From: Thiobacillus thioparus DSM 505
GTDB lineage: Bacteria; Pseudomonadota; Gammaproteobacteria; Burkholderiales; Thiobacillaceae
Assembly: GCF_000373385.1 (NCBI RefSeq)
Contig: NZ_KB891326.1
Coordinates: 209,309 to 273,308 of the forward strand
DNA: 64,000 bases
Reading direction: 5' to 3'
How positions within the stretch are numbered: position 1 is the stretch's first letter; the number at the start of each line of letters is the position of its first letter. This document shows, piece by piece, positions 10,031 through 31,322 of this stretch. A model generated the notes under the pieces. The model was not told the DNA's origin. It saw nothing but the letters and a program-made list of their open reading frames with translations, and did no database searches. The position numbers were made by a program, and so were the translations under genes.

Positions 10031-10038
10031 AAGTGGCC

Positions 10039-10659: not shown

Positions 10660-10833
10660 ACTTTGAATAGCAGGCGGCACAGTCGCCGACCGCGAAGATG
10701 CGGGCACAGTCGATCAGGGCGACTCCGGCCTGGCCACGCCGACCAGGCGGTCACCCGAGCGTGTGATCAACTCGAGTCCCCCTGCACCGCCGCCGATCGC
10801 GATGATGCGGTGGGGGCTCTGCGGGTCGGGCAA
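10660..10833 (-). pseudogene. Remnant of a type II NADH dehydrogenase (ndh-like)
   Basis: From a TTG at 10833 (AGGAG upstream) the minus strand reads HRIIAIGGGAGGLELITR, the N-terminal FAD motif of NDH-2. It reaches a stop at 10714. About 10 bases later, in another frame, it reads ARIFAVGDCAAC, the second FAD motif from the C-terminal half of the same family. Only the two ends of the gene are left, so an internal deletion of several hundred bases is likely. It sits between the mauG-like and fae-like genes. Confidence 0.65.
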
Positions 10834-12089: not shown

Positions 12090-12841
12090 GGCAGTTTTAT
12101 ACCTTCTTCCATTAACAAAGTGAGAATGTCGTTGTAGACGACGTCGGGTCCTAGATAGGAGGCGGTGTAGATTTCCCGGATGACATGGTTAGGGTCAATC
12201 AGAAAGACCTTCAGTACATGGCTTTTTGCGTTGATAGGCTTTAGGGTGACGGGGTCGACACCGACATAGACATCCTGGCCGTATGCATCCAGTATCGGGA
12301 CAAGATCGCGTAGCGATGCCGTGGTGAGAAAATCCCACTGCACATCATGATTCCCGTGCGCATTGTCGCCTGCGTAGAGCTTGAGCACTTCAGGCGTATC
12401 GTGCTCGGGGTCGAACGAAACACTGACGAGACGAACTTTTCCCTTCAGTGCAGGTAGTGCCTGCAAGCGGCTCTGCAAATTGTGAAACACGAGGTAAGCA
12501 TAGGGACATCCTGCCGGGTCGGCACAACTCGAGTAAATAAATGACAATAGCGTGACTTTGCCTCCGGTGAACTCGGATAGCGCGCGTGTTTTGCCATTTA
12601 TATCCAGTACCTTGCCATCTGGCGCGGGTTTGATCGCATAAAGCTTGTAGCTACCAGGCGGATGGGGCTTAAAGTCCATGATCACCCCGGCTTGTTCGGT
12701 AATTTCCTTGGACTGATCGCCATCAGAAGCATTGGCGATGGAAGCACCAGTCAAAACCAGCGTCATGAGCACGGAAAAAAAACCGCCCCCCCGCAAGGGG
12801 AGGCGGAGAGCCCCAACAATGTAAGCGCTCAGTTTGGACAT
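12086..12841 (-). CDS. SCO1/SenC copper-handling protein of the mtoX operon
   Basis: The 251-residue thioredoxin-fold protein has an N-terminal signal or anchor (ends near ANA, residue 38). The copper-binding cysteines are in CADPAGCP, one residue longer than the CxxxC of most SCO proteins, and the metal histidine is in SHVLKVFLID. MtoX is copper dependent, so this is probably its copper chaperone. It starts five bases after mtoX. Codons of its signal peptide contain a textbook intrinsic terminator (12775-12806). A downstream ATG at 12766 is possible but would leave a poor signal peptide. Confidence 0.85.
   Translation of the reverse strand: MSKLSAYIVGALRLPLRGGGFFSVLMTLVLTGASIANASDGDQSKEITEQAGVIMDFKPHPPGSYKLYAIKPAPDGKVLDINGKTRALSEFTGGKVTLLSFIYSSCADPAGCPYAYLVFHNLQSRLQALPALKGKVRLVSVSFDPEHDTPEVLKLYAGDNAHGNHDVQWDFLTTASLRDLVPILDAYGQDVYVGVDPVTLKPINAKSHVLKVFLIDPNHVIREIYTASYLGPDVVYNDILTLLMEEGIKLP
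12775..12806 (-). terminator. Intrinsic terminator/attenuator inside the start of sco
   Basis: On the minus strand CCGCCTCCCC (12806-12797) pairs with GGGGGGGCGG (12792-12783), all ten positions with one G-T, around a TTGC loop. Eight T follow (12782-12775). It is 40 bases beyond the mtoX stop and within the first codons of sco. It probably ends most mtoX transcripts and sets a low level of sco-mauG. Confidence 0.82.
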
Positions 12842-12845
12842 CAAA

Positions 12846-14231
12846 TTATTTACCCTTCGGCTCGGTCAGTGCGAGCTTGAGGCTGTCCAGATTCTGCGAT
12901 CCTGCAGCCAGCGGCTGCAACTTGCTCAAGTCGAGCGCCTGGAATTTCATGTGGTGGGCGCGACCGAGCTTCTCTTTGTAGAAGTCGATACTGAAGCCGA
13001 GCGTGAGTTTCTTGCCGTTCCAGTTGTACATCTTCAGGAACTGCTCGTCGTCCTTGCCCTTCTTGTCCCAGTTGCCCAGCAGGGAGGTGGTGAAATATAC
13101 CCGCTTGCCGTCGAAGGATTGCGACACCATGTTGACTTGGGAGCCGATCTTCTTCGAATAGACTTCTTTCGGCTTCATCGGGTTGCTGAAATCGTAGAAG
13201 CGCGTCATGCCTTCCATCATGGTATTGACCCACAGGCCCTTGCCGTTGGCGGTCATGGAAATATCCACCGGCAACGGAACATCCGCGGGGTTGCCGATGG
13301 TGCCGACGTCGTACGACTGCCATTCACCTTGCTTGTCCTGCTTGATGACATACAGCTTGGAAGTCAAGGCGGTGGCGGTCACGGCCCAGTTGTCGCCTTT
13401 TTTCAGCGACCAGCGGATTTCCAGTGGCGCACCGGGCACATCGAAGATTTTCTTGGGCTCCATGGTCTTCAGATCCCATATGGCCATGGTCTTGCCAAAG
13501 TGCTTCATGGCGTCGGGATCCTTGACCATCTTGCCGAGATCCATCATATAGTTGTTCCAGCCGGTGAAGCTAGACGTCAGCAAGACGTTCTTCTGCGGGT
13601 TGATGCCGAGGTCATAACCATAACCATCGCCCATGACGCCGCCAATCTTGGTGGTGGGCATGTCATGCTTGGAAATCAACGCGCCCTCGTTGTTGTAAAT
13701 GGCGATGCCGGTCACGCCGCCATGATCCTTGGTATTGGACAGGGCCTGTACCATCATGCGGCCGGGTAGTGCGTAGAAGGTGTGCGGACCGACATAGCCA
13801 GTCTTCTCGGCGAAATCTGTGATGGTCTTGACCAGCGTCGGCTTGGCCGGGTTGGTGTGAATGTCGAACACGAAAATCTTGTTACTGTCCAGAGCACCCG
13901 CCCACAGATAACGACGGTCATCGGTGAAGCCAGTATGGTGTGCTTCGCCACGGCCACCTACGGACAGGTAGTTGATCACTTTGCCATAGGTTTTGGAGCC
14001 AGGGCGCACGTCCACGGTTACGAGTTTGTCTGAGCCGTCGCCGACGCCTTCGACACCCAGTGTCCAGACATAGACTACATCTTCTTGGCCTTTGATGAGT
14101 GGCGTGAACGGCGAGTTACAGGTCTCATCCGCATAAGTAGTTGCCGGCAGGGTGGTCACACCCAATGCAACAGTGGCAGAAACGGCGGCCGCCAGGGCCT
14201 TCAGTGAAAAGCGGTTATTACATTTGGGCAT
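12846..14231 (-). CDS. mtoX: Methanethiol oxidase (SBP56 family)
   Basis: The 461-residue SBP56-family protein has a signal peptide (about residues 1-34), so it is periplasmic. Histidine clusters likely to bind copper are visible: HH at 98-99 (GEAHHTGF), His150 (VGPHTFY) and HH near residue 433 (RAHHMKF). Family members oxidise methanethiol to formaldehyde, sulfide and hydrogen peroxide. The following SCO and mauG genes match the published mtoX operon layout, which separates it from plain selenium-binding proteins. A sigma-54 promoter (14327-14341) and several dyads lie upstream. Confidence 0.9.
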   Translation of the reverse strand: MPKCNNRFSLKALAAAVSATVALGVTTLPATTYADETCNSPFTPLIKGQEDVVYVWTLGVEGVGDGSDKLVTVDVRPGSKTYGKVINYLSVGGRGEAHHTGFTDDRRYLWAGALDSNKIFVFDIHTNPAKPTLVKTITDFAEKTGYVGPHTFYALPGRMMVQALSNTKDHGGVTGIAIYNNEGALISKHDMPTTKIGGVMGDGYGYDLGINPQKNVLLTSSFTGWNNYMMDLGKMVKDPDAMKHFGKTMAIWDLKTMEPKKIFDVPGAPLEIRWSLKKGDNWAVTATALTSKLYVIKQDKQGEWQSYDVGTIGNPADVPLPVDISMTANGKGLWVNTMMEGMTRFYDFSNPMKPKEVYSKKIGSQVNMVSQSFDGKRVYFTTSLLGNWDKKGKDDEQFLKMYNWNGKKLTLGFSIDFYKEKLGRAHHMKFQALDLSKLQPLAAGSQNLDSLKLALTEPKGK

Positions 14232-14755: not shown

Positions 14756-15730
14756 TTAATAATTCCGGATGGCTAAAGTTGCGAATAGTTCGTCCCGTTC
14801 GACTGGCGTGCTGACTTTCGCGGCTCGATCTACAACTTCTCGCGACAGGTGACTGGAAAAAGTCCTGATGAAGTCGTAATGACAAGCGCGCAGGAACAGG
14901 CCTTTGCGGAAACCGATGCGGGTAATACTGGGTTCGAACAGATGGCTGGCATCCAGAAAACTGAGATCGCTATCATGGCTTTCATCTTCTGCCATCTCCG
15001 CCAGAATACCCACCCCAAGCCCTAGGCGGATGTAGGTCTTGATCACATCCGCATCGGTGGCGGTAAGCGCTACGCGGGGCGCGAGTCCGCGTCGTTGGAA
15101 GGCATCGTTGATATGAGAGCGATCGGTGAAACCGAACACATAAGTGAGAATGGGATATTCCCCTACTGCCTCCAGAGTTAATGGTTCAGCCATCTCTAGA
15201 GCATGTCCCCTGGGTACCACTACAGCGCGATTCCAGCGATAGCAAGGCAGCATGATCAGTTCATCGAAGAGATGCAGGGATTCCGTGGCGATGGCAAAGT
15301 CGATTCCGCCACTGGCTGCCATTTCCGCGATCTGGGCCGGGCTGCCCTGGTGGAGATGTAGGCTCAGTTCAGGGTATGTGCGCCTGAAGGTCCGGATGAC
15401 GGGGGGCAGCACGTAGCGGGCCTGCGTATGAGTCGTGGCAATAGACAGTTCACCGCTACTCGGGTCACTGAACTCGAGTGAGACTCGGCGGATCGCCTCT
15501 ATGTTGGCAAGCGTGCATTCAGCCAATTCCATGACTGCCCGTCCAGCTGCGGTACATCCAATAAGTTGGCGTCCAGCGCGTTCGAATAGAGGTACGCCCA
15601 ATTCTTCCTCAAGCAATCGGAGTTGTTTACTCAAACTAGGTTGCGACTTGAACAGCCGTTCAGCAGCGCTGGTGACATTGAACCCGCTGTGGGCTAGCGC
15701 TAGAAGATAGCGTAGCTGTTGTAACTGCAT
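14756..15730 (-). CDS. CysB-like LysR-family regulator
   Basis: The 324-residue protein starts at MQLQQLRYLLAL, which aligns with the start of CysB; the longer upstream frame is not needed. The N-terminal winged helix has the LysR pattern (SQPSLSKQLRLLEEELG). CysB-specific stretches follow: IATTHTQARYVLP, LHLHQGSPAQIAEM, MLPCYRWNRAVVVP, and TATDADVIKTYIRLGLGVGI. CysB proteins sense sulfur status through (acetyl)serine, sulfide or thiosulfate and control sulfur assimilation and sulfonate use. Its position between mtoX and a DsrC-like gene suggests control of one or both. Confidence 0.87.
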   Translation of the reverse strand: MQLQQLRYLLALAHSGFNVTSAAERLFKSQPSLSKQLRLLEEELGVPLFERAGRQLIGCTAAGRAVMELAECTLANIEAIRRVSLEFSDPSSGELSIATTHTQARYVLPPVIRTFRRTYPELSLHLHQGSPAQIAEMAASGGIDFAIATESLHLFDELIMLPCYRWNRAVVVPRGHALEMAEPLTLEAVGEYPILTYVFGFTDRSHINDAFQRRGLAPRVALTATDADVIKTYIRLGLGVGILAEMAEDESHDSDLSFLDASHLFEPSITRIGFRKGLFLRACHYDFIRTFSSHLSREVVDRAAKVSTPVERDELFATLAIRNY

Positions 15731-17511: not shown

Positions 17512-18711
17512 ATGTCGCGTAATGAAATTGCATGGAAAGAGCAGCCCAAATTTCCGTCTACTCATTTTGTAGATACCCGGATTTATACGGATAACGAGAT
17601 CTTCCGTGAGGAGCAGGAAAAGATTTTCAATAAATGCTGGATTATTGGCTGCCACGAGTCGGAATTGCCCAACGCGTTCGATTACCGCACTTTTCATCAT
17701 CCTGGCGGGGCACAGCTCTTTATGATCCGCGGCGAAGACATGAAAGTGCGCGCCTTCTACAATATCTGTCCGCATCGTGGCAACACGCTCCTTTACGATC
17801 CTGTCGGAAACGCCAAACGCATCACATGTATTTTCCATGCCTGGTCATTCAGCCCGAAAGGCGATTGCACGGATATCCCTCGTGGCAAGGAAGGTTACCA
17901 GGAACGTTACGGCTGCAAAGACGCGAGTTTGCGTGAAGTGAAAAGCGAAGTGGGTTACGGGGGCTTTGTTTGGGTCAACGTGGACGACGATAGCTGCACA
18001 CTCAAGGAATATATCGGCGATGCGCTGGGCATGATGGAAGAGAATCTCAGCATGCCTTTGGAAGTCTTTACCTATCATAAGGCGATCGTCAATACGAATT
18101 ACAAGTTGTGGCATGACACGAACAGCGAGTTCTACCACGACTATATGCATTACTTCAACCGTATTACGGGAATGATGCAACCAGGCTACTTTGATCGCAA
18201 GTACAAGGGGTATCCGAACGGCCACGCATCGGTGGGTTCGATGGCGATTAAATACGATGCTTACGCAGGTAGCCAAGAGCGCGCTGTGGGCTGGCCGGGT
18301 TTGGCGCCTGGCGGTTGGGTCCTGATTGACCTTTTTCCTGGAATGACCTTCAACCTTCGTACGTCGGTGCTACGAATGGATACGGCTATCCCGTTGGGGC
18401 CGGACAAACTGATTATCGAATTCCGTGGATTAGGGCTAAAGAGCGACACGCCGGAGCAGCGTGCTGAGCGAGTGCGTGATCACAATACGATTTGGGGGCC
18501 GTTTGGTCGCAACTTGCATGAAGATCTGCTCGGTGTGCATGGACAAGGATTGGCCATGCGTGAGCGAAGCGACAGCAAATGGGTTTTGCATGGTCGTGAA
18601 GAAAACTCGACGATACATGATGAGGTTGGGATGCGGCACTTCTACGCTGAGTGGGGCAAGCGCATGGGGCGTCAAGCATCCGATCCCTTCGGTGACAACA
18701 AGTTGGCTTGA
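17512..18711 (+). CDS. Rieske non-haem iron oxygenase, large subunit
   Basis: The 399-residue protein has an N-terminal Rieske domain (CPH at about residue 86, 17-residue spacing, then CIFH). The catalytic iron site is in NSEFYHDYMH (two histidines, upstream acidic residue). AGGAGAC precedes the start. It would hydroxylate or cleave a small substrate using electrons from the reductase and ferredoxin encoded next. The set large/small/reductase/Rieske ferredoxin followed by an SsuA-type importer recalls methanesulfonate monooxygenase (msmABCD plus msmEFGH). The normal 17-residue Rieske spacing differs from the 26 reported for MsmA. Substrate unknown. Confidence 0.85.
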   Translation: MSRNEIAWKEQPKFPSTHFVDTRIYTDNEIFREEQEKIFNKCWIIGCHESELPNAFDYRTFHHPGGAQLFMIRGEDMKVRAFYNICPHRGNTLLYDPVGNAKRITCIFHAWSFSPKGDCTDIPRGKEGYQERYGCKDASLREVKSEVGYGGFVWVNVDDDSCTLKEYIGDALGMMEENLSMPLEVFTYHKAIVNTNYKLWHDTNSEFYHDYMHYFNRITGMMQPGYFDRKYKGYPNGHASVGSMAIKYDAYAGSQERAVGWPGLAPGGWVLIDLFPGMTFNLRTSVLRMDTAIPLGPDKLIIEFRGLGLKSDTPEQRAERVRDHNTIWGPFGRNLHEDLLGVHGQGLAMRERSDSKWVLHGREENSTIHDEVGMRHFYAEWGKRMGRQASDPFGDNKLA

Positions 18712-18790: not shown

Positions 18791-19252
18791 GTGACGCCCA
18801 AACAATTAATTGATGAACTGATTTACCGGTCCTCCCTTGCGATGGACAGTAAGAACTTTACTGGATTCCTTGACTTGTGCGATCCGGCATTTCGCTATGC
18901 CATTACTGCTTACATTCCGGAAATCCGCAAAGAAATGACCTGGCTTGAACATGATAAAGACGGCATGAAGGTTCTGTTCGACAATTTGCCCAGACACAAC
19001 AGCGATCATTCATCGCTAAGCCGTCACGTCACAGTGTATACCGTCGAACAAGACGAAGCCAAACAACAGGCCAAAACGGTCAGTGCGTTACAGGTCTTTA
19101 AGACATCGCTGGATGGTGGTGCGACTGAGTTGTTCGCAGTTGGAAAAGTCTACGACACCATCTCCATGAATGGGGGCAATCCAAAGTTACTGGACCGGAA
19201 TGTTCGTCTAGATACGCGGATGCTCGGTATCGGTTACCACATCCCGCTTTGA
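18791..19252 (+). CDS. Rieske oxygenase small (beta) subunit
   Basis: This 153-residue protein has the SnoaL/NTF2-like layout of ring-hydroxylating oxygenase beta subunits: an N-terminal helical segment (LIDELIYRSSLAMDSKNF) followed by a strand-rich part (SSLSRHVTVYTV, LFAVGKVYDTISMN). It starts GTG after the large-subunit gene. Beta subunits stabilise the alpha3beta3 oxygenase and carry no cofactor. The gene order supports this assignment more strongly than the sequence alone. Confidence 0.78.
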   Translation: MTPKQLIDELIYRSSLAMDSKNFTGFLDLCDPAFRYAITAYIPEIRKEMTWLEHDKDGMKVLFDNLPRHNSDHSSLSRHVTVYTVEQDEAKQQAKTVSALQVFKTSLDGGATELFAVGKVYDTISMNGGNPKLLDRNVRLDTRMLGIGYHIPL

Positions 19253-19276: not shown

Positions 19277-20314
19277 ATGAAAATCCAGGTCAATGCCAGA
19301 AACCGCGCACATCATTTTAATGCGACCGAAGGGGAAAAATTACTTTACGCTGGATTGAGTGGTGCTGTTGGCCTGCCCTATGAATGTGGTAGTGGAACAT
19401 GTGGAACGTGCAAGGCGCGGCTGATCTCGGGAGAGATCGTCGATGCTTGGCCCGATGCTCCAGGGCGCAAATACCTAAAGGGCGAGGATGAGTTTCTGAT
19501 GTGTCAGTGTGCGGCTAAAACTGATGCATCAATCGAAGTGGCAAGCTTTGTTCAGACTATGGAAGCGGGCGTTTGCGTACCTGCTGCATTGAAGGGGAAT
19601 ATAAGTTCGGCAAAGCTGTTGACGTCCGACGTGATTCATCTTCAGATCAAGCTGAGCCAGCCGATGGAGTTTGATGCCGGCCAGTTTGTGATGGTCCAGG
19701 TACCCGGCGTGGCGGGGTTTCGCGGTTGGTCAATGGTCAACTATCAGCGTGAAGCGGAAAGCCTCGAATTCATTGTCAAGAAGAAGCCGGGGGGCGGGAT
19801 ATCCGAATGGCTGTTCAATAGCCAGTGCACAGGTGTGGAGGTCGAGGTGTTTGGACCTTTGGGCCATGCGACTTTTTACCCGGGCTTGTCAAAAAACATA
19901 CTTTGTATTGCCGGCGGCAGCGGCATTGCGGGAATGATATCCATCCTGTCGCGGGCTGCACAGGATGATTATTTCCGCCAATATCGGGGTGATGTGTTCT
20001 TTGGTGTGCAGACGCTGAAGGATGCCTTTTTCCTCGATGAGTTTTCTCGATTACGGGCTCAATGCGGTGACAAACTGAATGTGACCATAGCCCTCTCGAA
20101 AGAGGATCCTCCTGCTTCAGCCCTGAGCGACTATCCGCACCTGAAGTTCGACACGGGTTATGTGCACGATGTAGCGGGGCGTCATATGCAGGGCAGTTAT
20201 CAAAACGTCAGGGCCTATCTTGCCGGCCCACCGCCAATGGTGGATGCAACCGTCCGAATATTACTTCAGGCGAGATTAACCACCGACAACATTTGTTATG
20301 ACAAATTCAGTTAG
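19277..20314 (+). CDS. Oxygenase reductase (2Fe-2S, FAD, NAD domains)
   Basis: The 345-residue protein has a plant-type 2Fe-2S ferredoxin domain (CGSGTCGTC, final Cys in MCQC) in residues 1-90. A ferredoxin-NADP reductase-like module follows, with RGWSMVN for flavin binding and IAGGSGIAGM for nucleotide binding; the C-terminus is YDKFS. It passes electrons from NAD(P)H to the Rieske ferredoxin encoded next. The domain order (ferredoxin first) is that of BenC/XylZ/MsmD-type reductases. It starts 24 bases after the small subunit. Confidence 0.9.
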   Translation: MKIQVNARNRAHHFNATEGEKLLYAGLSGAVGLPYECGSGTCGTCKARLISGEIVDAWPDAPGRKYLKGEDEFLMCQCAAKTDASIEVASFVQTMEAGVCVPAALKGNISSAKLLTSDVIHLQIKLSQPMEFDAGQFVMVQVPGVAGFRGWSMVNYQREAESLEFIVKKKPGGGISEWLFNSQCTGVEVEVFGPLGHATFYPGLSKNILCIAGGSGIAGMISILSRAAQDDYFRQYRGDVFFGVQTLKDAFFLDEFSRLRAQCGDKLNVTIALSKEDPPASALSDYPHLKFDTGYVHDVAGRHMQGSYQNVRAYLAGPPPMVDATVRILLQARLTTDNICYDKFS

Positions 20315-20324
20315 GAATGGCGGA

Positions 20325-21050
20325 ATGAGCAAGATACGCATATGCAATACGGCTGAAATTCCCAGCAATGGAATGAAAGACTATGACGTCGAGGGCGGGC
20401 TCAAAGTCCTCATAGCCAACGCGGGCGATTGTTATTACGCGTATCAGGGAATTTGCCCCCATCAGGAAGTTTGCCTGGCCGAGGGCTATTACGATGGCGC
20501 AGTGCTTACCTGCCACCAGCATTTATGGCAGTGGGACATTACCACCGGAAAAGCGCTCGGCCTTGCCGAGGCTCCTCTTGAAAAATACGAAGTCAAGGTT
20601 GAGGACGGCGAAATATTCGTATTGCAATCCAGCGCGCTGAAGGCGGCACAGTTGTTCATGGATGTTTCTGGCGACACCCTGAAACGGCTTGATTTGCTTG
20701 CCCGTCGTGAGAAATACGAAAGCGGGAGCACCCTCTATAACATCGGCGACCCAACCGATGATCTTTATATTCTAGAGTCGGGTCGCGTTGAGTTTCTCAT
20801 TGGCCGTGATGGCACCAGCCCTGCCGGTTTTGTTTTGCATAAGGGTGAAGTGTTTGGTTGGGCCGCATTACTCGAGAATCAAGCGCGTCGGATTGCAAAG
20901 GCCACCTGCTTGGAAGACTCGGTCCTGTTGCGACTGAATGGCGAGGAAACCTTGAAGGTCCTCGAATCCGATCCGGCATCGGGATATCTCGTCATGCGTA
21001 AGCTTTCGACGCTGATCACTCGACATCTGGGTTCCCAAGGAGAGAAATAG
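20325..21050 (+). CDS. Rieske ferredoxin fused to a Crp-like cNMP-binding domain
   Basis: The 241-residue protein has two parts. Residues 1-105 are a Rieske ferredoxin (CPH, 16-residue spacing, CHQH), the usual electron carrier to a Rieske oxygenase. Residues 115-241 form a cyclic-nucleotide-binding fold (YESGSTLYNIGDPTDDLYILESG, GEVFGWAALLENQ). There is no DNA-binding domain. In the phosphate cassette the usual FGE is FGW, so cAMP binding is doubtful. The same FGWAA variant occurs in the N-terminal domain of the permease at 22488. The fusion implies that electron supply is gated by a ligand or by docking. A start at 20298 is possible. Confidence 0.85.
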   Translation: MSKIRICNTAEIPSNGMKDYDVEGGLKVLIANAGDCYYAYQGICPHQEVCLAEGYYDGAVLTCHQHLWQWDITTGKALGLAEAPLEKYEVKVEDGEIFVLQSSALKAAQLFMDVSGDTLKRLDLLARREKYESGSTLYNIGDPTDDLYILESGRVEFLIGRDGTSPAGFVLHKGEVFGWAALLENQARRIAKATCLEDSVLLRLNGEETLKVLESDPASGYLVMRKLSTLITRHLGSQGEK

Positions 21051-21184
21051 CCAAAACACTAATAGCGGGATTAGCACCAAGACTTTGCGTTGCACAGCAT
21101 ATGAATTTCGTACAGATATAAAGAGTAATCAGTATTGATTATGACCCGTACCAGGGAAGTGTCTAACAAGAGGAGAATTTCATC

Positions 21185-22339
21185 ATGACTTGCCTTATGA
21201 ATTGGTTTGATCGTTGCATTGGTCTCGCATTAGCAGTTTTAGTTGCGACTTTTGGCCTTACTGTCGGGAACGTGTCTTCTGCGTTCGCAGGGGAGAACAG
21301 CTATGGGAAAGTGGGTGACCCCATTCACTTGGTCATTGGTTACCAGCCGTATTACACGGAGTCTTGGTCCGGTGTGGTAATGCAGCCCATGAAGTTTTAT
21401 GAGAAATACCTGCCCAAGGGATCCACTGTTGAATTTTCGATCGGCTTGCAGGGCGCCGTTATCGTCAACGCGATGCTCGCAGGCAAGCAGGATATTGGTT
21501 ACATGGGAGACATGCCGGCCATCGTCTCGACGACCAAACAGAATGTTGCAGATCTTCGTATCGTTGCCACAGCGGGTTTAGGCCACGATCAATGCAATAT
21601 CTTCCTTGCAAGGACTGACGCCCCTAAATTTGCCAATCAGACAGAGGCCATCAAATGGCTGAATGGCAAACGGGTGGCCGTGCCAAAAGGCTCTTGTACA
21701 GATCGTTTTGCACAAGCCGTGTTCAAAAAAATGGGTATTGAACCTGCAAGTTACCTGAATCAGAACATCGAGGTCATTACCAGCGGTTTCCGGGCTGGCA
21801 AGATCGATGCCGCGGTTATTTGGGAGCCTACAGCGTCCCGCCTGGTGCTTGAAGGCCTCGCCAAGCGCGTCGCGTCTGGTACGGCAGTGAATGAAAACGA
21901 CGGTGGATTCATTGTCATGCGCAACGACCTGATACAGCAGCGTCCAGACGTCGTTAAGGCATGGCTGAATGCCGAACTCGATGCCCAGCAATATTTGGCT
22001 GACCCGAAAAACGCACAAAAGATTGCGCGTATGGTGAAGGATCAAACCACGGGCTTCACAGAAAAGGTTCTCTGGACATCGCTGTATGGCGAATATCCGG
22101 AAGCCCAAGGGGGTACCGCAGTACGGCTCCAGCTGCCTTACACAATTAGCCCGGAAGCTTCGGCGCTAATCACCAAAGCTGCAGCGTTTCTTTATTCCGT
22201 AAAGAGCATTAATACGCCTACATTGCGGCCCGACGCCGTCATGCCGGAGTTCACCGAGGCGATATTGAAAGAGCGTGGCCTGAAGAGTCCGATCGGCGTG
22301 GTTAAAGCCTTGCCAGCTTCCGCATATAAAGGCGAGTAA
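21185..22339 (+). CDS. ABC substrate-binding protein, SsuA/NMT1-like, copy 2
   Basis: This 384-residue secreted protein has a signal peptide of about 36 residues (ending SAFAG) and a ribosome site AGAGGAG. It is a paralogue of the protein at 1922 (GYQPYYTESWSGVV, DIGYMGDMPAIV, GKIDAAVIWEP, and the ending LPASAYK). It would deliver substrate to the heteromeric permease encoded next. It sits directly behind the oxygenase operon, so the imported compound is probably the oxygenase substrate. A sulfonate or related organosulfur anion is inferred from the family. Confidence 0.88.
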   Translation: MTCLMNWFDRCIGLALAVLVATFGLTVGNVSSAFAGENSYGKVGDPIHLVIGYQPYYTESWSGVVMQPMKFYEKYLPKGSTVEFSIGLQGAVIVNAMLAGKQDIGYMGDMPAIVSTTKQNVADLRIVATAGLGHDQCNIFLARTDAPKFANQTEAIKWLNGKRVAVPKGSCTDRFAQAVFKKMGIEPASYLNQNIEVITSGFRAGKIDAAVIWEPTASRLVLEGLAKRVASGTAVNENDGGFIVMRNDLIQQRPDVVKAWLNAELDAQQYLADPKNAQKIARMVKDQTTGFTEKVLWTSLYGEYPEAQGGTAVRLQLPYTISPEASALITKAAAFLYSVKSINTPTLRPDAVMPEFTEAILKERGLKSPIGVVKALPASAYKGE

Positions 22340-22487
22340 CTCTCTCCAACACAATTTATCAGGATTGTTCCCAGCTGTGCGCATGGCTTGACGCGTACGG
22401 CTGGCGGGAGTCTTGACTTCTGAAATACATCGGCGCCATCGCCGGCGGCCCAAGATTTCAGACAGTATAGCTTCAAGAGGAATATAA

Positions 22488-23810
22488 ATGGACCAGAACC
22501 AAACTGTAGCCTTGCTGAAGCGATCTATGCCGTTCCAGACGGTTCCGAGCGACATGCTCGATGCAATTGCTAAGCTGGCTCGATATGAGTCTTATGCTCG
22601 AGGGGATGTCATTTATCACCAGGGCGATTTTGCTGACGATGTTTATATCGTGTCCTCAGGTACGGTACAGCACACGCTTGGGATTGGCTTCCAGGCGACC
22701 CACCCGGAAAAAATCCTGCATAGCGGCGATGTATTTGGCTGGGCAGCGGTGCTCGATAATCAGCGCAGCCGTTTGGCGAAGACCGTCTGCATGGAACGGA
22801 CTGAACTGATCCGGATCAACGGCGAGGAACTGATCAATCTCTTCAGGGCTTCGCCCGAAACCGGCGATATTGTCATGAGTCGCTTCGCGACCATGATCAA
22901 TAAAGAATACACCATGCCGGAAGAAGTGGCGGGGCATGTCCCGCATTTCACGCAAGTGCCGGTCACCATGGCCACCGGTTTGACCTTGACGATGTTCCGT
23001 CTGTCGCAGTGGCTGAAAAGTCCAAAGCCCTATCTGATGTTCACGGGATTCGGAATCCTGTTGGCTACCTGGTATTTCACAGTCGAGGTCTGGAAATTGC
23101 CCAGGTTTGTGGACATGCCGGGATTGACCGTGGTGATGAAAGAATGGTTCAGCAAAGACCCGGTATATGGTTTATCTATCTATACGCCTGAGTATTACCA
23201 GCATATCTGGGTCAGCGTTCGCCGAATCCTGATTGCATTTTTCCTTGCCACGGTCCTTGGCGTACCGCTGGGGCTATTTCTAGGCTGGTCCAAGACGTTC
23301 CGCGAATACGTCTTTCCTGTTTTTGAAACGTTGCGCCCCATCCCAATTCTTGCCTGGGTGCCTTTGGCGATCCTAATGTTTCAGGGTTCCGAAACGCCTG
23401 TTATCTACCTTACCTTTCTTGCATCTTTCTATGCCACCGCCCTGAATACCATGCTGGGCGTCGAAACTATCGACGAGTCTTACAGCCGGGCGGCCGCTTG
23501 TCTCGGCGCAAGTAAGTGGCAAACCTTTAAGGAAGTGATTGTGCCGGGGGCCATGCCATTTATGTTTACGGGCCTGCAAATATCGATCGGTGTTGCCTGG
23601 TTCTCTCTGGTTGCAGGAGAAATGGTATCCGGCGAGTTCGGGCTGGGTTATGTGATCAACACGTCTTATACGATGGTTCGCTATCCGACTATCGTGATCG
23701 GCATGATCACACTTGGCATAGTTGGCTACACCTCCAGCGCCCTCGTACGCATGGCAGGTGACTACATGATGCAGTGGCGAGTCCGCGAACTTGCCTTGGG
23801 AGGTCGTTAA
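22488..23810 (+). CDS. ABC permease with an N-terminal Crp-like sensor domain
   Basis: The 440-residue protein is a fusion. Residues 1-145 form a cNMP-binding-type domain (YARGDVIYHQGDFADDVYIVSSG, GDVFGWAAVLDNQRSR), homologous to the C-terminal domain of the protein at 20325 and sharing its FGW variant. From about residue 180 it is a NitT/TauT-family permease with six membrane segments and a docking loop (RAAACLGASKWQTFKEVIVPG). Permeases of this family are normally about 260 residues without a sensor. A cytoplasmic domain here could gate transport. RBS AGAGGAA. Confidence 0.9.
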   Translation: MDQNQTVALLKRSMPFQTVPSDMLDAIAKLARYESYARGDVIYHQGDFADDVYIVSSGTVQHTLGIGFQATHPEKILHSGDVFGWAAVLDNQRSRLAKTVCMERTELIRINGEELINLFRASPETGDIVMSRFATMINKEYTMPEEVAGHVPHFTQVPVTMATGLTLTMFRLSQWLKSPKPYLMFTGFGILLATWYFTVEVWKLPRFVDMPGLTVVMKEWFSKDPVYGLSIYTPEYYQHIWVSVRRILIAFFLATVLGVPLGLFLGWSKTFREYVFPVFETLRPIPILAWVPLAILMFQGSETPVIYLTFLASFYATALNTMLGVETIDESYSRAAACLGASKWQTFKEVIVPGAMPFMFTGLQISIGVAWFSLVAGEMVSGEFGLGYVINTSYTMVRYPTIVIGMITLGIVGYTSSALVRMAGDYMMQWRVRELALGGR

Positions 23811-24673
23811 TGAGTGCCGTATTGCAAAAATCTGCGAAGGCTGAAAAAGGAGCATTGAAAGGTGCAATCCGGATTGAGGATGTAGTCAAGATCTATGATC
23901 CTGAAGGCGCTGCGGTGATGGCTGTGGACCATTGTTCGCTTGATATTCCCGCTGGCGAAATATGCATGATTGTCGGGCCATCCGGCTGCGGAAAAACCAC
24001 ACTGTTGAATGCCATTGCAGGGTTTCACAGTATCAGTTCGGGCAAGATCTTCCTTGATGACGAACTCCTGTGCGGGCCCGAGAAACCCATGGCCCAACCG
24101 GGCTCTGATCGCATTGTGGTGTTTCAGAACGGTGCGCTGTTTCCATGGAAATCCAACTTGGACAACGTCGCTTTTGGCCCGTTGATGCAAGGCAAGTTGG
24201 GTAAAAAGGAAATCTACGACAAAGCCCGCAGCATGATGGCAGATGCCGGTCTAAGCGGGACCGAGCACAATTTCCCCGGCGAAGTTTCCTCCGGCTTGCG
24301 CCGTCGGGTAGAAATTGTACGGGCCCTGATGAATGAACCCAAGGTATTGCTGTTCGACGAACCTTATCGCGCACTCGACTCGCTCACCAAATCGGTGATG
24401 CATGAGGCTCTACTGGAAATTTATTACAAAAACAAAGTCACTATCTTCTTTATCACCCACGATCTGGAAGAAGCGATCTTTCTTGGACATCGACTTGTCA
24501 TCATGTCCTCGCGTCCATGTAAGCCGAAAAAAATTATTGATGTTGATATCCCTCATCCGCGTGATTACAGCGTACTGACCAGTACACGATATCGCCAATT
24601 GATGGATGAGACGATAGAACTCGTACATGAAGAAGCCAAGAAAGCTTTTTCGGCTGGCGAGAAAGAAGGGTAA
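23810..24673 (+). CDS. ABC ATPase with degenerate signature motif
   Basis: The 287-residue NitT/TauT-type ATPase starts at an ATG overlapping the permease stop (TAATG, GGGAGG upstream). Walker A is at 56-63 (GPSGCGKT), Walker B LFDEP at 181-185 and the switch His217 is present (ITHD). The signature is VSSGL (159-163) instead of LSGGQ. It complements the ATPase at 25512, which has a good signature but no switch histidine. Together they can form one consensus and one degenerate ATP site. The C-terminus matches the fragment at 1-201. Confidence 0.9.
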   Translation: MSAVLQKSAKAEKGALKGAIRIEDVVKIYDPEGAAVMAVDHCSLDIPAGEICMIVGPSGCGKTTLLNAIAGFHSISSGKIFLDDELLCGPEKPMAQPGSDRIVVFQNGALFPWKSNLDNVAFGPLMQGKLGKKEIYDKARSMMADAGLSGTEHNFPGEVSSGLRRRVEIVRALMNEPKVLLFDEPYRALDSLTKSVMHEALLEIYYKNKVTIFFITHDLEEAIFLGHRLVIMSSRPCKPKKIIDVDIPHPRDYSVLTSTRYRQLMDETIELVHEEAKKAFSAGEKEG

Positions 24674-24677
24674 CAAT

Positions 24678-25499
24678 ATGAATGCCAAACGTTTGAGAAA
24701 AGCACTATTTAATCGATCCAAACTACGTGCTGTCATTGCCATTTTCGTGTTCCTCGTATTGTGGGAGATCGGTTCGCGGTCCAAGGAGTGGTTCGGCTTT
24801 GCCGTGCCCTGGATTGGCCATGTTCCCGCGCCAACTGCAGTTGTGGTCGCGTGGTACGGATTGCTGGGTGACCCAGGCTACTGGCAAAGCTGGTATATGA
24901 GCACGCTCCGTGTGCTGGCGGGATTCTTTGCTGCCATGGTGGTCGGTATTCCCCTGGGCTTATTCATGGCAGTGAACAGGACATTCAACGGTCTGGTTTT
25001 TCCTTCTTTTGAAATATTGCGGCCGATCCCGCCACTGGCCTGGGTTCCGGCATCGATCATTTTCTGGCCAAGCCAGGAATTGTCCATTGCATTCGTTACT
25101 TTTCTCGGGGCCTTTTTCACGATCGTGATAAACGTTCTGGGAGGTGCGAAATCCATTGATCCCCGCTATTTCCAGTCCGCACAGTCAATGGGCTCTTCGC
25201 AATGGGATGTCTTCCGGCGTGTCGTTCTCCCGGCAACGCTTCCTTCGATCGTCGTGGGGTCTGCCGTAGGCATGGGGATCACCTGGGAAGTCGTGGTCGC
25301 TGCCGAAATGATTTCGGGCGGTGGTGGGTCGGGTGGTTCGGGTGGTGGATTGGGCTTTTTCATCTGGAATTCATATGTCGGTGGGTCATACGAACAGATC
25401 GTTGTCGGCATGATCAGCATCGGCATCGCTGGATTCATCTCCAGCGAGCTTTTACGAAAACTCGGTAGTTACTTAACCCCATGGTTGAGAAAACGGTAA
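24678..25499 (+). CDS. ABC permease, NitT/TauT family, with Gly/Ser-rich insert
   Basis: This 273-residue six-helix permease starts at 24678 (AAGAAGGG upstream). It pairs with the sensor-fused permease at 22488 to make a heterodimeric channel. The docking loop is AQSMGSSQWDVFRRVVLPA. After EMISG there is a glycine/serine stretch (GGGSGGSGGGLG) absent from the otherwise collinear paralogue at 213 (EMISGGNGLGRL). The DNA there (about 25318-25350) is a GGTGGGTCG-like microrepeat, so slippage is a likely origin. Confidence 0.88.
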   Translation: MNAKRLRKALFNRSKLRAVIAIFVFLVLWEIGSRSKEWFGFAVPWIGHVPAPTAVVVAWYGLLGDPGYWQSWYMSTLRVLAGFFAAMVVGIPLGLFMAVNRTFNGLVFPSFEILRPIPPLAWVPASIIFWPSQELSIAFVTFLGAFFTIVINVLGGAKSIDPRYFQSAQSMGSSQWDVFRRVVLPATLPSIVVGSAVGMGITWEVVVAAEMISGGGGSGGSGGGLGFFIWNSYVGGSYEQIVVGMISIGIAGFISSELLRKLGSYLTPWLRKR

Positions 25500-25511
25500 A
25501 GGATGATTCGA

Positions 25512-26426
25512 ATGAACGCTATTACTCAAAATCTATCGCCTGCTTCATCGAAGAGTCCAAATGTGAAGATCAAGGCTGCTGAAATCAAAGTTACAAATGT
25601 CAGCAAATCGTATGGCGCGGGCCTCTTTACCAAAGAAGTAATCAAGGATTGTTCGTTCACCATCGAACGCAACAAGCTTACTGTGATGATCGGCCCTTCA
25701 GGCTGCGGTAAAAGCACGTTGATACGGCTTCTTGCGGGCTTCGAGAAATCCTCGTCCGGCAGTATCGAAATTGACGGGAAACGAATTACCGGTCCGGGGC
25801 GTGATCGTCTGGTTGTTTTCCAGGAATCGGCATTGTTTCCCTGGATGACTACCTACGACAACATCATGTATGGGCCCAAAGCGCGCGGCGAAAATACCCA
25901 GCTGAATCGGGATCAAGCTGAATATTTGCTGGAAAAGGTTGGACTGACGGCTTTCAGGGAGAAATATCCTCCGCAACTCTCCGGCGGCATGCAGCGTCGG
26001 GCTGAATTGGCTCGTGCGATGATCAATAACCCCGATGTCATGATCCTCGATGAACCGTTTCGAGGCTTGGATTGCATGTCCAAGGAATTGATGTGGGAGT
26101 ACTACTCAGGGCTTTATGAAGAGTCGCATAGAACGAACTTCTTCGTTACCACGGATATCGATGAAGCAATTTTCCTGGCTGATCGCCTCCTGATCATGTC
26201 AAACATTCCGGGACAGGTTCGTGCAACCATCGAAGTCGATTTGCCGCGCCCGAGAAGACTGGCTTTTGTTTTTGATAATGAACGGGCCGTTGCCATAAAA
26301 ATGGAGGCTTTGTCCATCCTTCACAAGGAAGCGATGAAATCCTTCAGTGGTGGAAGCAAGGCGGCGGCAGATTTTGTCGAAGCTTATTCAAAGCGTTCCA
26401 GTGGCAGTGGGCCATCCGAACAATAG
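25512..26426 (+). CDS. ABC ATPase, switch histidine replaced by Thr
   Basis: The 304-residue ATPase starts at the ATG with AAAGGA upstream (an ATG at 25503 is less well placed). Walker A is at 61-68 (GPSGCGKS), signature LSGGM at 156-160 and Walker B ILDEP at 178-182. The H-loop reads FVTTDIDEA, with Thr214 replacing the switch histidine. The paralogue at 1048 has Ser there, so loss of this residue is conserved in both importers. The long C-terminal tail (SSGSGPSEQ) is extra. Last gene of the importer. Confidence 0.9.
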   Translation: MNAITQNLSPASSKSPNVKIKAAEIKVTNVSKSYGAGLFTKEVIKDCSFTIERNKLTVMIGPSGCGKSTLIRLLAGFEKSSSGSIEIDGKRITGPGRDRLVVFQESALFPWMTTYDNIMYGPKARGENTQLNRDQAEYLLEKVGLTAFREKYPPQLSGGMQRRAELARAMINNPDVMILDEPFRGLDCMSKELMWEYYSGLYEESHRTNFFVTTDIDEAIFLADRLLIMSNIPGQVRATIEVDLPRPRRLAFVFDNERAVAIKMEALSILHKEAMKSFSGGSKAAADFVEAYSKRSSGSGPSEQ

Positions 26427-26694
26427 ATCAATTCATCATATAAAACGCCATGCTTAGTCCTGGATAACGGGTGGATTGCTCACGCTCAAATTCACCGATT
26501 TCTCTTGTTTTTGTTTAGGTTTGCTTCACGTCTTAATTTGTAAATATTTGTTTTTCCTGGGGAAAATTTTTTCGTTTGAATTATTTATTCTAAGTAAAAC
26601 AAGTAATTGTTAAAAGGCAAAACGCAAAATTTCGCATGCTGTCCTCGATGTGTATTTGAATGCTGATCGAAGCTTTTAATATTTGGAGATGAAA
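26427..26694. other. Intergenic region (268 bp), AT-rich
   Basis: No gene or clear promoter motif found. Strongly AT-rich with several T and A runs. No -24/-12 element of sigma-54 type was seen, so the downstream amidohydrolase-like gene is probably transcribed from another promoter class. Confidence 0.5.
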
Positions 26695-27549
26695 ATGGGA
26701 AAAAAAGTAATTGATATGCGCAGTAGGCCTTCATTTTTGCATGATTTTTATGGGGCGACGCCGGGTACCAATGAGTATGAGGTGGTCAAATGGCTGAATA
26801 GGCGTGTGGGTTCAAAAGACGACGAGCACTTTACCCGCTCAAAAGATGTCGAGGGGTTTGTAGGCGAAATCAGGGAAGTGGGCATAACAGCGTCTGTGGT
26901 GGTGGGCCGAGACATACCAGGAATTCGGCATACAAATGATGAAATCAGTGAAATAACACAAGGACATAAAGAGCTTGTTGGCATGGGCTCTGTCGACCCC
27001 TTGGCATTGGGCGTCAAAGGGTCGATTGCCGAAGTGGAGCGGGCCATTAAAAAACTAGGCTTGAAAGGTATCAATCTCGAGCCTGGATTCGGTAGTGCGC
27101 CTATGAAGGCCGACAATCCATTGTTATATCCAATCTATGATGCCTGTGATCAATTGGGCGTTCCCGTTTGCCTTATGTCAGGGCCAACCTCTCCTAGTCT
27201 CGAACTGACTGATCCCGCTCCTGTGGGACGGATTGCGAAGGCATTTCCTAACCTGTCGATTATTTGTTATCACGGGTTCTATCCCTATGTGAACGAAATA
27301 ATCGGGGTTGCCTTCCGCTGGGAAAATGTTTTCCTTGTGCCGGATATGTATATATTTCTTCCGGGTGGAAGTCTTTATGTTGAAGCAGCAAACGGTTTCA
27401 TGAAAGACCAACTCCTGTTTGGTAGTTCATATCCCTTCCGGGCGATGGGGCAGTCAGTTGATGATTATAGAAACCTTGGATTCAAAGATGATGTTATCGA
27501 CCAGGTCATGTATAAAAATGCCAAACGGGTACTTAAATTAAAAATCTAG
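26695..27549 (+). CDS. Amidohydrolase-2 family protein, metal ligands replaced
   Basis: The 284-residue TIM-barrel protein resembles the ACMSD/amidohydrolase-2 family (GINLEPGFG, YPIYDACDQLGVPVCLMSG, NLSIICYHGFYPYVNE, LLFGSSYPFRAMGQ). The N-terminal metal motif, usually DxHxH, here reads DMRSRP (Arg9, Arg11), and the usual GTDYPF aspartate is Ser. The metal site therefore looks dismantled. It may be a non-hydrolytic homologue, binding protein or decarboxylase-like enzyme. It sits between the importer and a TauE-type exporter in the oxygenase block. The start at 26695 follows GGAG by six bases. Confidence 0.7.
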   Translation: MGKKVIDMRSRPSFLHDFYGATPGTNEYEVVKWLNRRVGSKDDEHFTRSKDVEGFVGEIREVGITASVVVGRDIPGIRHTNDEISEITQGHKELVGMGSVDPLALGVKGSIAEVERAIKKLGLKGINLEPGFGSAPMKADNPLLYPIYDACDQLGVPVCLMSGPTSPSLELTDPAPVGRIAKAFPNLSIICYHGFYPYVNEIIGVAFRWENVFLVPDMYIFLPGGSLYVEAANGFMKDQLLFGSSYPFRAMGQSVDDYRNLGFKDDVIDQVMYKNAKRVLKLKI

Positions 27550-28141: not shown

Positions 28142-28894
28142 ATGACAATTGCCTGGCTGCTTGCGGTTTCTCTTGTCGTCGGCATGCTCATCGGCGCTGT
28201 AGGTATAGGTGGAATCCTACTCATTCCGGCACTCAATATTCTTGGAGGATTGACAATCCAAGAGGCCATGGCAACCGCATTGGCCACATTTATTTTTACG
28301 GGGGTTATTGGGACATTTTCATTTCAACGGCGTGGAAGTATCGACTGGAGCATTACTGTACCGCTGTGCATTGGAGCAGCAATCTTTGGATTTTTCGGCG
28401 CCTGGGCAAATGCAAAGATCAATGCACAAGCCCTCTCTTTGATTCTGTCTTCGATTATTGTTTTCGCGGGCATTTACACTTTCTATACGAAAAATAAAAA
28501 GAAATCGGTCATATTTCAGAATCGTCCACGATTTCAGCAGGCATTATTGATTGGCGTAGGTGCTGTCGTGGGTTTCGGCTCGGGCCTTACGGGTGTCGGA
28601 GGACCCGCTTTGTCTGTTCCCATGATGATTTTGCTGGGATTTCCTCCCCTGAGCACAATAGGCGCAAGCCAGGTAATTCAGATCCTGGCAGCACTCTCAG
28701 GGACAGCCGGGAATCTGCAATATGGGTCATTCGATTACAAACTTCTGGTCATTTGCACACTTTTTGAAGTCGCAGGTGTCGTAGCAGGCGTGCGGATCGT
28801 ACATGCCATGAATGCGCAGGTTTTGCGGGGTAGCGTAGGGGTATTGTGCATTCTTGTTGGTGCGGGGCTCATGGTGCGGGCATTGGGGTTTTGA
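28142..28894 (+). CDS. TauE/SafE-family membrane exporter
   Basis: The 250-residue membrane protein has about seven to eight hydrophobic helices in two repeats (GAVGIGGILLIPAL and GSGLTGVGGPALSVPMM are the paired family motifs). TauE/SafE proteins export sulfite, sulfoacetate or related anions, and are common beside sulfonate-degradation genes. Here it closes the oxygenase/importer block, consistent with export of sulfite released from an organosulfur substrate. The family is broad, so the transported anion is not certain. Confidence 0.83.
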   Translation: MTIAWLLAVSLVVGMLIGAVGIGGILLIPALNILGGLTIQEAMATALATFIFTGVIGTFSFQRRGSIDWSITVPLCIGAAIFGFFGAWANAKINAQALSLILSSIIVFAGIYTFYTKNKKKSVIFQNRPRFQQALLIGVGAVVGFGSGLTGVGGPALSVPMMILLGFPPLSTIGASQVIQILAALSGTAGNLQYGSFDYKLLVICTLFEVAGVVAGVRIVHAMNAQVLRGSVGVLCILVGAGLMVRALGF

Positions 28895-29337: not shown

Positions 29338-29763
29338 ATGTCCAGTACAAATCAAGCCGACTTGTTGCCTGCACTGCACCGGCTACAGGAAAAATTCGGC
29401 TATATCCCCGACCATGCCATTGCCGAACTGGCAAAAGCCCACAACATGGCGCAGGCAGAAGTGGTCGGCGTCATCGGCTTCTATCATGACTTTCGCCGTA
29501 CGCCACCCGGCCGCCAGCGTCTTCGGATATGTCGCGCAGAGTCATGCCAGGCTATGGGCGCGGATGCCCTGGCCCTGCACGCCAGCACGCAACTCGGCGT
29601 CGAGTTCGGCGCCACCACGGCCGATGGCGAAGTGACGCTGGAAGCGGCTTATTGCCTGGGCAATTGCGCCTGTTCGCCGGCGGTGATGCTGGACGACGAA
29701 TTGCACGGCCGGGTCAGCGCCGAGCGCCTCGACGCCATGCTTGCAGAAGGACGAGGGGTATGA
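29338..29763 (+). CDS. fdsG: NAD-dependent formate dehydrogenase, gamma subunit
   Basis: The 141-residue NuoE-like thioredoxin-fold subunit has four 2Fe-2S ligands (CRAESCQ and CLGNCAC). It starts at the ATG following CAGAGGATTT. With FdsB it forms the diaphorase part of the soluble molybdenum formate dehydrogenase, passing electrons to NAD. The next gene overlaps its stop by four bases (ATGA). The gene order fdsG-B-A-(fdhD)-D matches the Cupriavidus/Rhodobacter operon. Confidence 0.92.
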   Translation: MSSTNQADLLPALHRLQEKFGYIPDHAIAELAKAHNMAQAEVVGVIGFYHDFRRTPPGRQRLRICRAESCQAMGADALALHASTQLGVEFGATTADGEVTLEAAYCLGNCACSPAVMLDDELHGRVSAERLDAMLAEGRGV

Positions 29764-31322
29764 CGCAACGGATTTTTGTGCCTCGCGATGCCAGTGCCGT
29801 ATCGGTGGGCGCGGAGCGTGTGTGTCGAACGATCGAGAACGAGGCCCGGAACCGCGGGCTGGATGTGGAAATCGTGCGCAACGGCTCGCGCGGACTGTAT
29901 TGGCTGGAGCCACTGATCGAGATCGAGCTTGACGGGCAACGTATCGCCTACGGGCCGGTTAATCCTGAGGACGTGCTGGGTCTGTTCGAGGCCGGATGGC
30001 TGCAGGGCGGTGCGCATGCCTTATGCCATGGCCCCAGTGAAGAGATTCCATATCTGAAGCGCCAAACCCGGCTCACCTTTGCCCGCATGGGCGTCACCGA
30101 TCCTCTGTCGCTGGAGGACTATCGTGCGCATGGCGGATTAAAGGGACTGGAGCGCGCGCTCGACATGAAGGCCGAAGACATCGTGGATGCCATCGATACG
30201 GGTGGCTTGCGCGGCCGTGGCGGCGCAGGTTTCCCCACGGGAATCAAGTGGCGCACCGTGATGAATGCAGGCGGCGGACAAAAATACATCGTCTGCAATG
30301 CCGACGAGGGTGACTCCGGCACATTCTCGGACCGCATGCTGATGGAGGGCGATCCCTTTTGTCTGATCGAAGGCATGATCATTGCCGGCCTGGCAGTGGG
30401 GGCGGACACCGGTTACATCTACCTGCGCTCGGAATACCCGGATGCCTGGGACGTGCTCGAGGATGCCATCGTCACGGCCACGCGTGAAGGCATACTGGGC
30501 GCCAATGTGCTCGGCTCTGGACGACGCTTCGAACTGAATCTTTTCAAGGGCGCCGGGGCCTACGTGTGTGGCGAGGAAACCTCGTTGCTGGAGAGCATCG
30601 AGGGCAAGCGCGGTCTGGTCCGCGCCAAGCCGCCGCTGCCTGCGTTGCAGGGCCTGTTCGGCCGTCCCACGGTGGTCAACAACGTCATCACGCTGGGCAG
30701 CGTGCCCTGGATCCTGGCGCATGGCGGCGAAGCCTACAAAGCGCACGGCAGCGGTCGTTCGCGCGGCACGCTGCCGTTCCAGCTTGCGGGCAACCTGAAG
30801 CAACCCGGTCTGGTCGAGGTCGCCTTTGGCATGACCCTGCGCGAACTGCTATACGATTTCGGCGGCGGCTCCGCCAGTGGACGGCCAATCCGTGCCGTGC
30901 AGGTGGGCGGACCGCTCGGCGCCTATCTGCCAGAGTCGCGCTTCGACCTGCCCCTCGATTATGAGGCGTTTGCGGCAGTCGGTGCCACGGTGGGCCATGG
31001 CGGGATCGTTGCCTTCGACGACAGCGTCGACATGGCGAAAATGGCCCGCTATGCCATGGAATTCTGCGCCATCGAGTCCTGCGGCAAATGCACGCCGTGC
31101 CGTATCGGTTCGGTTCGTGGCGTGGAGTTGCTGGACAGCATGCTGGCCGCGCGCCCGCAACATTCCAACGACGACACCCTGCTGCGCGATCTTTGCCAGA
31201 CTATGCTGGAAGGATCGCTTTGCGCCATGGGCGGTATGACGCCGTATCCGGTCCTGTCCGCACTCGATCACTATCCTGAAGATTTCGGCCTGTCGCCGAA
31301 GCAAGAGGAGGCCTCCACATGA
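29760..31322 (+). CDS. fdsB: NAD-dependent formate dehydrogenase, beta subunit
   Basis: The 520-residue NuoF-like flavoprotein starts at the ATG overlapping the fdsG stop; frames extending further upstream are inside fdsG. Visible motifs are the glycine-rich NADH loop GRGGAGFPTGIKW, the FMN region CNADEGDSGTFSDR and GAGAYVCGEETSLLESIEG, and the 4Fe-4S site ESCGKCTPCR near the C-terminus. An N-terminal thioredoxin-like extension is present, as in other FdsB proteins. It reduces NAD with electrons from FdsA. Confidence 0.93.
   Translation: MTQRIFVPRDASAVSVGAERVCRTIENEARNRGLDVEIVRNGSRGLYWLEPLIEIELDGQRIAYGPVNPEDVLGLFEAGWLQGGAHALCHGPSEEIPYLKRQTRLTFARMGVTDPLSLEDYRAHGGLKGLERALDMKAEDIVDAIDTGGLRGRGGAGFPTGIKWRTVMNAGGGQKYIVCNADEGDSGTFSDRMLMEGDPFCLIEGMIIAGLAVGADTGYIYLRSEYPDAWDVLEDAIVTATREGILGANVLGSGRRFELNLFKGAGAYVCGEETSLLESIEGKRGLVRAKPPLPALQGLFGRPTVVNNVITLGSVPWILAHGGEAYKAHGSGRSRGTLPFQLAGNLKQPGLVEVAFGMTLRELLYDFGGGSASGRPIRAVQVGGPLGAYLPESRFDLPLDYEAFAAVGATVGHGGIVAFDDSVDMAKMARYAMEFCAIESCGKCTPCRIGSVRGVELLDSMLAARPQHSNDDTLLRDLCQTMLEGSLCAMGGMTPYPVLSALDHYPEDFGLSPKQEEAST

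Follow-up and report, generated by a model that had tools for sequence, protein, structure and literature searches.

The described systems closest to the locus studied here are methanesulfonate monooxygenase MsmABCD and the MsmEFGH importer, which combine a four-component Rieske oxygenase with a sulfonate-type ATP-binding cassette (ABC) importer. The same combination occurs in a 64,000-nucleotide stretch of the Thiobacillus thioparus DSM 505 genome (contig NZ_KB891326.1; this whole stretch is referred to as the window). The Msm genes form two divergent operons and encode a Rieske motif with a 26-residue spacer, whereas the window has a single operon and a 17-residue spacer. In the window operon, a Rieske ferredoxin and an ABC permease each carry a cyclic-nucleotide-binding-type domain (CNBD), and the two domains belong to one subfamily. 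The main text of PMC4433239 gives 16 kDa for MsmC of strain M2 and 888 bases for the gene of MsmF of Filomicrobium, and both proteins are too short to include a CNBD. The term "cyclic nucleotide" is absent from that main text. It does list "MsmA" proteins with 17-residue spacers from Methylibium, Methyloversatilis, Ralstonia PBA, a Rhodocyclaceae strain, and Thiobacillus, stating that its authors are aware of no data on methanesulfonate oxidation by them (PMC4433239). These proteins are probably of the same family as the window oxygenase; a Methylibium, a Methyloversatilis, a Thiobacillus, and strain PBA are among the 47 loci analyzed below (L025, L022, L012, and L045, respectively).

The ferredoxin (20325–21050, + strand) is 241 amino acids in length. 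Its Rieske domain (PF00355, residues 4–80) is followed by a C-terminal CNBD part (residues 104–241, 20634–21047), which scores 62.0 bits against PF00027 at residues 129–216. The permease (22488–23810, + strand; 440 amino acids) has its CNBD part at the N-terminus (residues 1–150, 22488–22937; PF00027, 52.7 bits at residues 34–120), ahead of a membrane part recognized as BPD_transp_1 (PF00528, over cut-off, residues 258–421). Both CNBD scores exceed the curated Pfam cut-off of 27.5 bits, in agreement with a preliminary description of this DNA, which had placed cNMP-type domains at these two ends. The permease is of the NitT/TauT type, as judged by BPD_transp_1 and by its resemblance to permeases for nitrate, bicarbonate, and taurine (CmpB, E 1.6e-31; nitrate permease, E 1e-28); it scores below the NCBIfam equivalog cut-offs. 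Neither protein has a DNA-binding domain such as that of Crp/Fnr regulators (Pfam, E ≤ 0.001), also as described before. In its predicted structure, the ferredoxin chain stops just past the C-helix. The predicted structure of the permease is poor (mean predicted local distance difference test score, 61.6).

A direct comparison of the two CNBD sequences gives 42% identity over 131 columns (E 3e-37); this result, together with the tree described below, rules out chance likeness. As the preliminary description had noticed, FGW replaces FGE in the phosphate cassette of both (F177, G178, and W179 of the ferredoxin, 20853–20861; F83, G84, and W85 of the permease, 22734–22742). The shared FGWAA motif reported there holds, while the R-x-AK that follows narrows to R-[IL]-A-K in the window. 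The arginine of this motif is R189 in the ferredoxin (20889–20891) and R95 in the permease (22770–22772).

Full-length searches at E ≤ 1e-3 gave 1302 matches to the ferredoxin among 1906 candidate proteins and at least 3747 matches to the permease among 8000 candidates, the latter figure possibly taking in unfused permeases. Both Pfam domains of the respective fusion are present in all of the best 120 of the 1302 ferredoxin matches and in all of the best 120 of the at least 3747 permease matches. An artefact of assembly or reading frame is ruled out, because both fusions recur across many assemblies. Some permeases carry a tandem pair of CNBDs (616–625 amino acids; also L027). A Thiobacillus ferredoxin of 214 amino acids (P0024) lacks the stretch containing the FGW cassette (columns 172–199 of alignment A1) and is either a deletion variant or an assembly slip. 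Ten plasmid records match the ferredoxin fusion, none of them over more than 80% of the query.

We aligned the cassettes of 34 ferredoxin, 32 permease, and 21 stand-alone domains (87 rows). Tryptophan occupies the canonical glutamate position in all 87 rows, and profile alignments place it opposite the glutamate of FGE in PKG; the glutamate of canonical CNBDs is kept in neither window domain. The glycine before the tryptophan and the alanine two residues after the arginine are invariant. The cassette arginine, ten residues on from the tryptophan, is kept in 86 of the 87 rows, including R189 and R95. The only row without it is the permease of L045, a locus that also lacks the ferredoxin CNBD. 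The free variation that the preliminary description had named as speaking against its proposal was not seen at these positions. The permease CNBD diverges fast, with a mean distance of 0.87 as compared with 0.23 for the membrane part. That the Trp/Arg motif is kept despite this divergence argues for a retained binding site, while loss of the glutamate argues against the usual mode of cyclic-nucleotide binding. In cAMP-binding CNBDs, the cassette glutamate binds the ribose 2'-OH. The pocket is probably altered in this subfamily, and cAMP is probably not its ligand. The phosphate cassette is among the most strictly conserved parts of the domain, and G220, M224, and I231 of the C-helix region are kept in 94, 95, and 92% of rows over the three CNBD types. 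Among 16 unrelated CNBDs, GW occurs at the cassette in one (L137). This protein (L137, 469–2445) has two CNBDs, both with GW, and an apparent acyltransferase end; a tryptophan at this position is thus not confined to the family. This case, together with stand-alone proteins with FGW or VGW located elsewhere in genome G006, rules out FGW alone as a signature.

Co-occurrence of the two fusions, which the preliminary description had proposed to check, was examined in 47 loci. These came from a scan with two peptide patterns of one genome per species (84,980 species), and relatives without these peptides were therefore missed. Ferredoxins were counted at ≥45% identity and permeases at ≥60%. One locus (L024), whose contig ends inside the permease gene, was set by hand as positive for the permease CNBD. 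Both genes could be scored in 38 of the 47 loci. In 29 of these both genes are fused, in seven neither is, and two are discordant, L034 having only the ferredoxin fusion and L045 only the permease fusion. The remaining nine loci consist of five fused ferredoxins and one unfused ferredoxin without a scorable permease, and three with distant ferredoxins only.

A similar result was obtained for 300 genomes drawn evenly from the order. The ferredoxin fusion (a match spanning at least residues 3–239 of 241, E ≤ 1e-15) was found in nine, and the permease CNBD (E ≤ 1e-9) in the same nine. The permease CNBDs of these nine are 49–59% identical to that of the window (window, 100%) and lie in open frames of 345–909 amino acids. 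At these thresholds, neither fusion occurs in the other 291 genomes; a ferredoxin-only match was found in three (G172, G211, and G294), and a CNBD match of another or unclassified kind in four (G006, G036, G129, and G276). Only similarity matches were used here, longest-frame gene calls being unreliable in GC-rich loci. The 47-locus and 300-genome counts are not independent, as some genomes are common to both (e.g., G132 corresponds to L027).

The ancestry of the domains was examined in a tree of 107 CNBDs, comprising 91 family rows and 16 others, several of which form long outgroup branches; L005, a minus-strand CNBD of the window genome, was included, and L008 (likewise from the minus strand of that genome) and L009 were excluded. 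The 91 family rows form one clade against the 16 others (support 95). Within it are a ferredoxin group (93), a group of stand-alone domains with a TauE/SafE neighbor (97), and a permease group (99), while inner forks are weak due to the small number of columns. The permease group also holds four other stand-alone rows, two termed soloB and two from G006. Since each fusion corresponds to one group, each seems to have arisen once.

A backbone tree of the operon was built from eight proteins (38 rows, 2404 columns), excluding the Rieske and CNBD parts as well as ten of the 47 loci having fewer than five backbone proteins. An unfused group of the Polynucleobacter type (six rows) is set apart with support of 100. 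Locus L047 has neither domain, and its neighbors in the tree are L032 and L036, within the fused clade (support 98; next branches 100, 95, and 99). Because L047 is nested among fused relatives, its state is most simply explained as one joint loss in two genes. L047, L010, and L011 are labelled Bordetella parapertussis, Rhizobium, and Anaerolineales, respectively, and their operons group with betaproteobacterial ones; all three are metagenome bins and may be mislabelled or wrongly binned.

In many loci, the surroundings of the operon encode stand-alone members of this CNBD subfamily. A profile built from ten CNBDs (A5) was run on 33 whole genomes and gave scores of either ≥126 bits or ≤67 bits, with nothing between. 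High scores occur in 27 of the 33 genomes, 20 of which have a stand-alone copy, and in none of the six Polynucleobacter-type genomes. The stand-alone copy is retained in the genomes behind L034 and L045, with one fusion each, and behind L047, with none. Of 21 stand-alone copies, 19 have a gene of the TauE/SafE (sulfite-exporter) type within ~1.5 kb; L177 has none, and L187 has a weak partial match (42 bits). In a sample of 398 genomes from the phylum, 22 have an A5 match at E ≤ 1e-15, but only the window genome and G264 reach the high level (≥149 bits), the next score being 68 bits. Of the nine PF00027 matches in the window genome, the two operon CNBDs alone match A5 at E ≤ 1e-15. A further kind of stand-alone protein, with a permease-type FGW-CNBD, is located upstream of oxygenase genes in L016 (4332–4994) and L042 (3913–4872).

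The other genes of the operon, all on the + strand, begin with the oxygenase α subunit (17512–18711; Pfam, spacer read from the sequence) and β subunit (18791–19252), the latter with a Ring_hydroxyl_B score of 24.5 bits, just below the cut-off of 27. A ferredoxin reductase with 2Fe-2S, FAD, and NAD domains (19277–20314) precedes the ferredoxin. The periplasmic binding protein (21185–22339) is of the SsuA/TauA type (NMT1_2 over cut-off; SsuA_fam 111 bits, below the cut-off of 163.5). After the CNBD-permease come a first ABC ATPase (23810–24673), a second permease without a CNBD (24627–25499), whose true start may be further in, and a second ATPase (25503–26426), all three recognized by Pfam. 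An amidohydrolase (26683–27549), which keeps its position in many relatives and shares 58% identity with the one beside the 26-residue-spacer operon of L188, is followed by a TauE/SafE exporter (28142–28894; PF01925, 135.4 bits over 32.6). TauE/SafE and a 58% identical amidohydrolase lie beside the operon in a 26-residue-spacer cluster on a Methylobacterium nodulans plasmid. NAD-linked formate-dehydrogenase-like genes are located downstream (29344–34168, + strand; thioredoxin-like ferredoxin, Nuo51-type, and molybdopterin subunits). Upstream on the − strand is a CysB-type LysR regulator (14756–15730; NF009326, 457.2 bits over 436), and beyond it the methanethiol oxidase MtoX (12846–14231; NF052453, 747 bits over 650) with adjacent SCO1/SenC (12086–12844) and CCP_MauG (10884–12089) genes. 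MtoX, SCO1/SenC, and CCP_MauG form a C1-sulfur gene island adjoining the sulfonate operon.

As in methanesulfonate monooxygenases, to which the oxygenase is related, α, β, Rieske ferredoxin, and reductase are encoded together. Membership in that group by spacer length is ruled out, the spacer being 17 residues in the window and close relatives as compared with 26. Spacers of 26 residues do occur in L026, L029, L054, L188, and L189. In L026 and L029, genes for a reductase, a CNBD-ferredoxin, a binding protein, and a CNBD-permease resembling those of the window come after an α subunit of this type and the small ferredoxin belonging to it; these hybrid operons with two ferredoxins span 6338–10729 and 6336–10729, respectively. 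Two plasmids encode 26-residue-spacer α subunits sharing 61% and 53% identity with that of the window, and the ferredoxins of these two clusters are unfused (122 and 105 amino acids), like those of the described msm operons. From the hybrid operons, the plasmid α subunits, the SsuA likeness, and the CysB, TauE, MtoX, and formate-dehydrogenase-like genes, the cluster probably takes up and oxidizes small sulfonates, its substrate being a small alkanesulfonate and most likely methanesulfonate.

CNBD copies are present on the importer and on the ferredoxin and, in many relatives, also next to a putative sulfite exporter, suggesting control of several pathway steps by a single signal. The best reading of these data, to which we give about an even chance, is that the CNBD, with its altered pocket, serves the whole pathway as an allosteric module. 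The operon would import a small alkanesulfonate and oxidize it, releasing sulfite and aldehyde. One CNBD subfamily, its pocket re-tooled by replacement of glutamate with tryptophan and retention of arginine, would serve as the shared module. The permease CNBD, ahead of the membrane part, would set uptake, and the ferredoxin CNBD would set electron delivery to the oxygenase. The stand-alone copy beside TauE/SafE, found in many relatives though not in the window genome, may control product export or else act in trans. The ligand would be a small anion or another pathway metabolite, and probably not a conventionally bound cyclic nucleotide; a pathway anion is favored because the kept arginine could hold an anion and because copies are found at entry, oxidation, and exit. 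Import, oxygenation, and export would thereby be matched to one internal pool. Gating might be inhibitory, with the product acting on import, or activating, with the substrate as the trigger, and both would fit equally well. The preliminary description had proposed that electron supply and uptake are gated in common. The data support this in part; it is plausible, and both the joint loss and the stand-alone copies strengthen it. A bolder form, that a single metabolite controls the whole route post-translationally and that the Trp/Arg pocket binds a pathway anion (sulfite or sulfonate), a new class of CNBD ligand, is held only tentatively.

Several observations weigh against a shared allosteric module. 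L034 and L045 keep one fusion only, and neither fusion therefore strictly needs the other. L046, L048–L050, L052, and L053 have a very similar operon without any such CNBD, and the chemistry therefore does not require the module. In genome G006 (68% complete), two stand-alone permease-type relatives (L119, 5587–6126; L120, 154–690) lie in other surroundings, and no fusion was found. On the backbone tree each trait requires three changes, two of them coinciding, and so few pairs cannot reach significance. No stand-alone copy was found in the window genome (A5, E ≤ 1e-15) or in seven of the 27 subfamily genomes. The 17-residue spacer departs from the enzymes proven to act on methanesulfonate, as given in the main text of PMC4433239. 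Lastly, once the backbone is accounted for, the partial distance correlation of the two CNBDs is 0.11 (p 0.16; 24 rows, L026 and L029 purposely excluded).

The main rival is that the CNBDs are docking elements, pairing through their C-helices to tie the ferredoxin, and a stand-alone partner, to the permease, such that oxygenation takes place at the importer. The same subfamily on both proteins, conservation of the C-helix region, and joint absence from L047 are as expected from docking. The strictest conservation, however, includes the phosphate cassette, and the two CNBDs show no extra covariation. In the same analysis, the partial correlation was 0.19 (p 0.028) between the ferredoxin CNBD and the permease membrane part, 0.22 (p 0.022) between the Rieske part and the membrane part, and 0.34 and 0.41 (p 0.002) between the two parts within one protein. 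In addition, L034 and L045 each keep one domain alone, although both genomes retain the stand-alone copy. We consider docking unlikely.

Somewhat less likely still, and on a par with each other, are two further explanations. The domains may be under ordinary cyclic-nucleotide control, with cAMP, cGMP, or a relative bound despite the tryptophan and reporting carbon status. The kept arginine and CNBD fold are consistent with this, as are two class III cyclase matches in the window genome (88.3 and 74.5 bits), but no class I cyclase match was found in that genome, and tryptophan replaces the glutamate throughout the alignment. Alternatively, the domains may be add-ons for stability or dimerization that were fixed early in a spreading operon, their co-occurrence reflecting operon inheritance. 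The largely syntenic operon, a CNBD tree with one group per fusion, and the small number of independent events fit such hitch-hiking, whereas retention of the pocket motif through fast divergence, joint absence from L047, and the position of stand-alone copies beside TauE/SafE speak against it.

Known CNBDs belong to single channels, kinases, or regulators. The window domains share the fold of CNBD-gated channels, PKA and PKG regulatory subunits, and Crp/Fnr regulators, but differ in having tryptophan for the cassette glutamate and in having a Rieske ferredoxin and an ABC importer permease as effectors. ABC importers with a fused regulatory domain include ModC, MetN, and NrtC, in which this domain is on the ATPase; in the window the added domain is a CNBD and is on the permease. 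Another electron-carrier fusion occurs in genome G276 (L129, 3413–5053), in which two CNBDs with a canonical FGE or GE cassette are joined to a ferredoxin of the 4Fe-4S rather than the Rieske type. No published account of a shared CNBD module was found in a full-text literature search, subscription papers lying mostly outside its coverage. If the proposed module is real, one CNBD subfamily placed on successive steps would co-regulate import, oxidation, and perhaps export, compactly and without transcription. It would also offer a way into the short-spacer relatives of methanesulfonate monooxygenase, enzymes of unproven substrate, and into bacterial control over the sulfite and aldehyde set free from C1 sulfonates.

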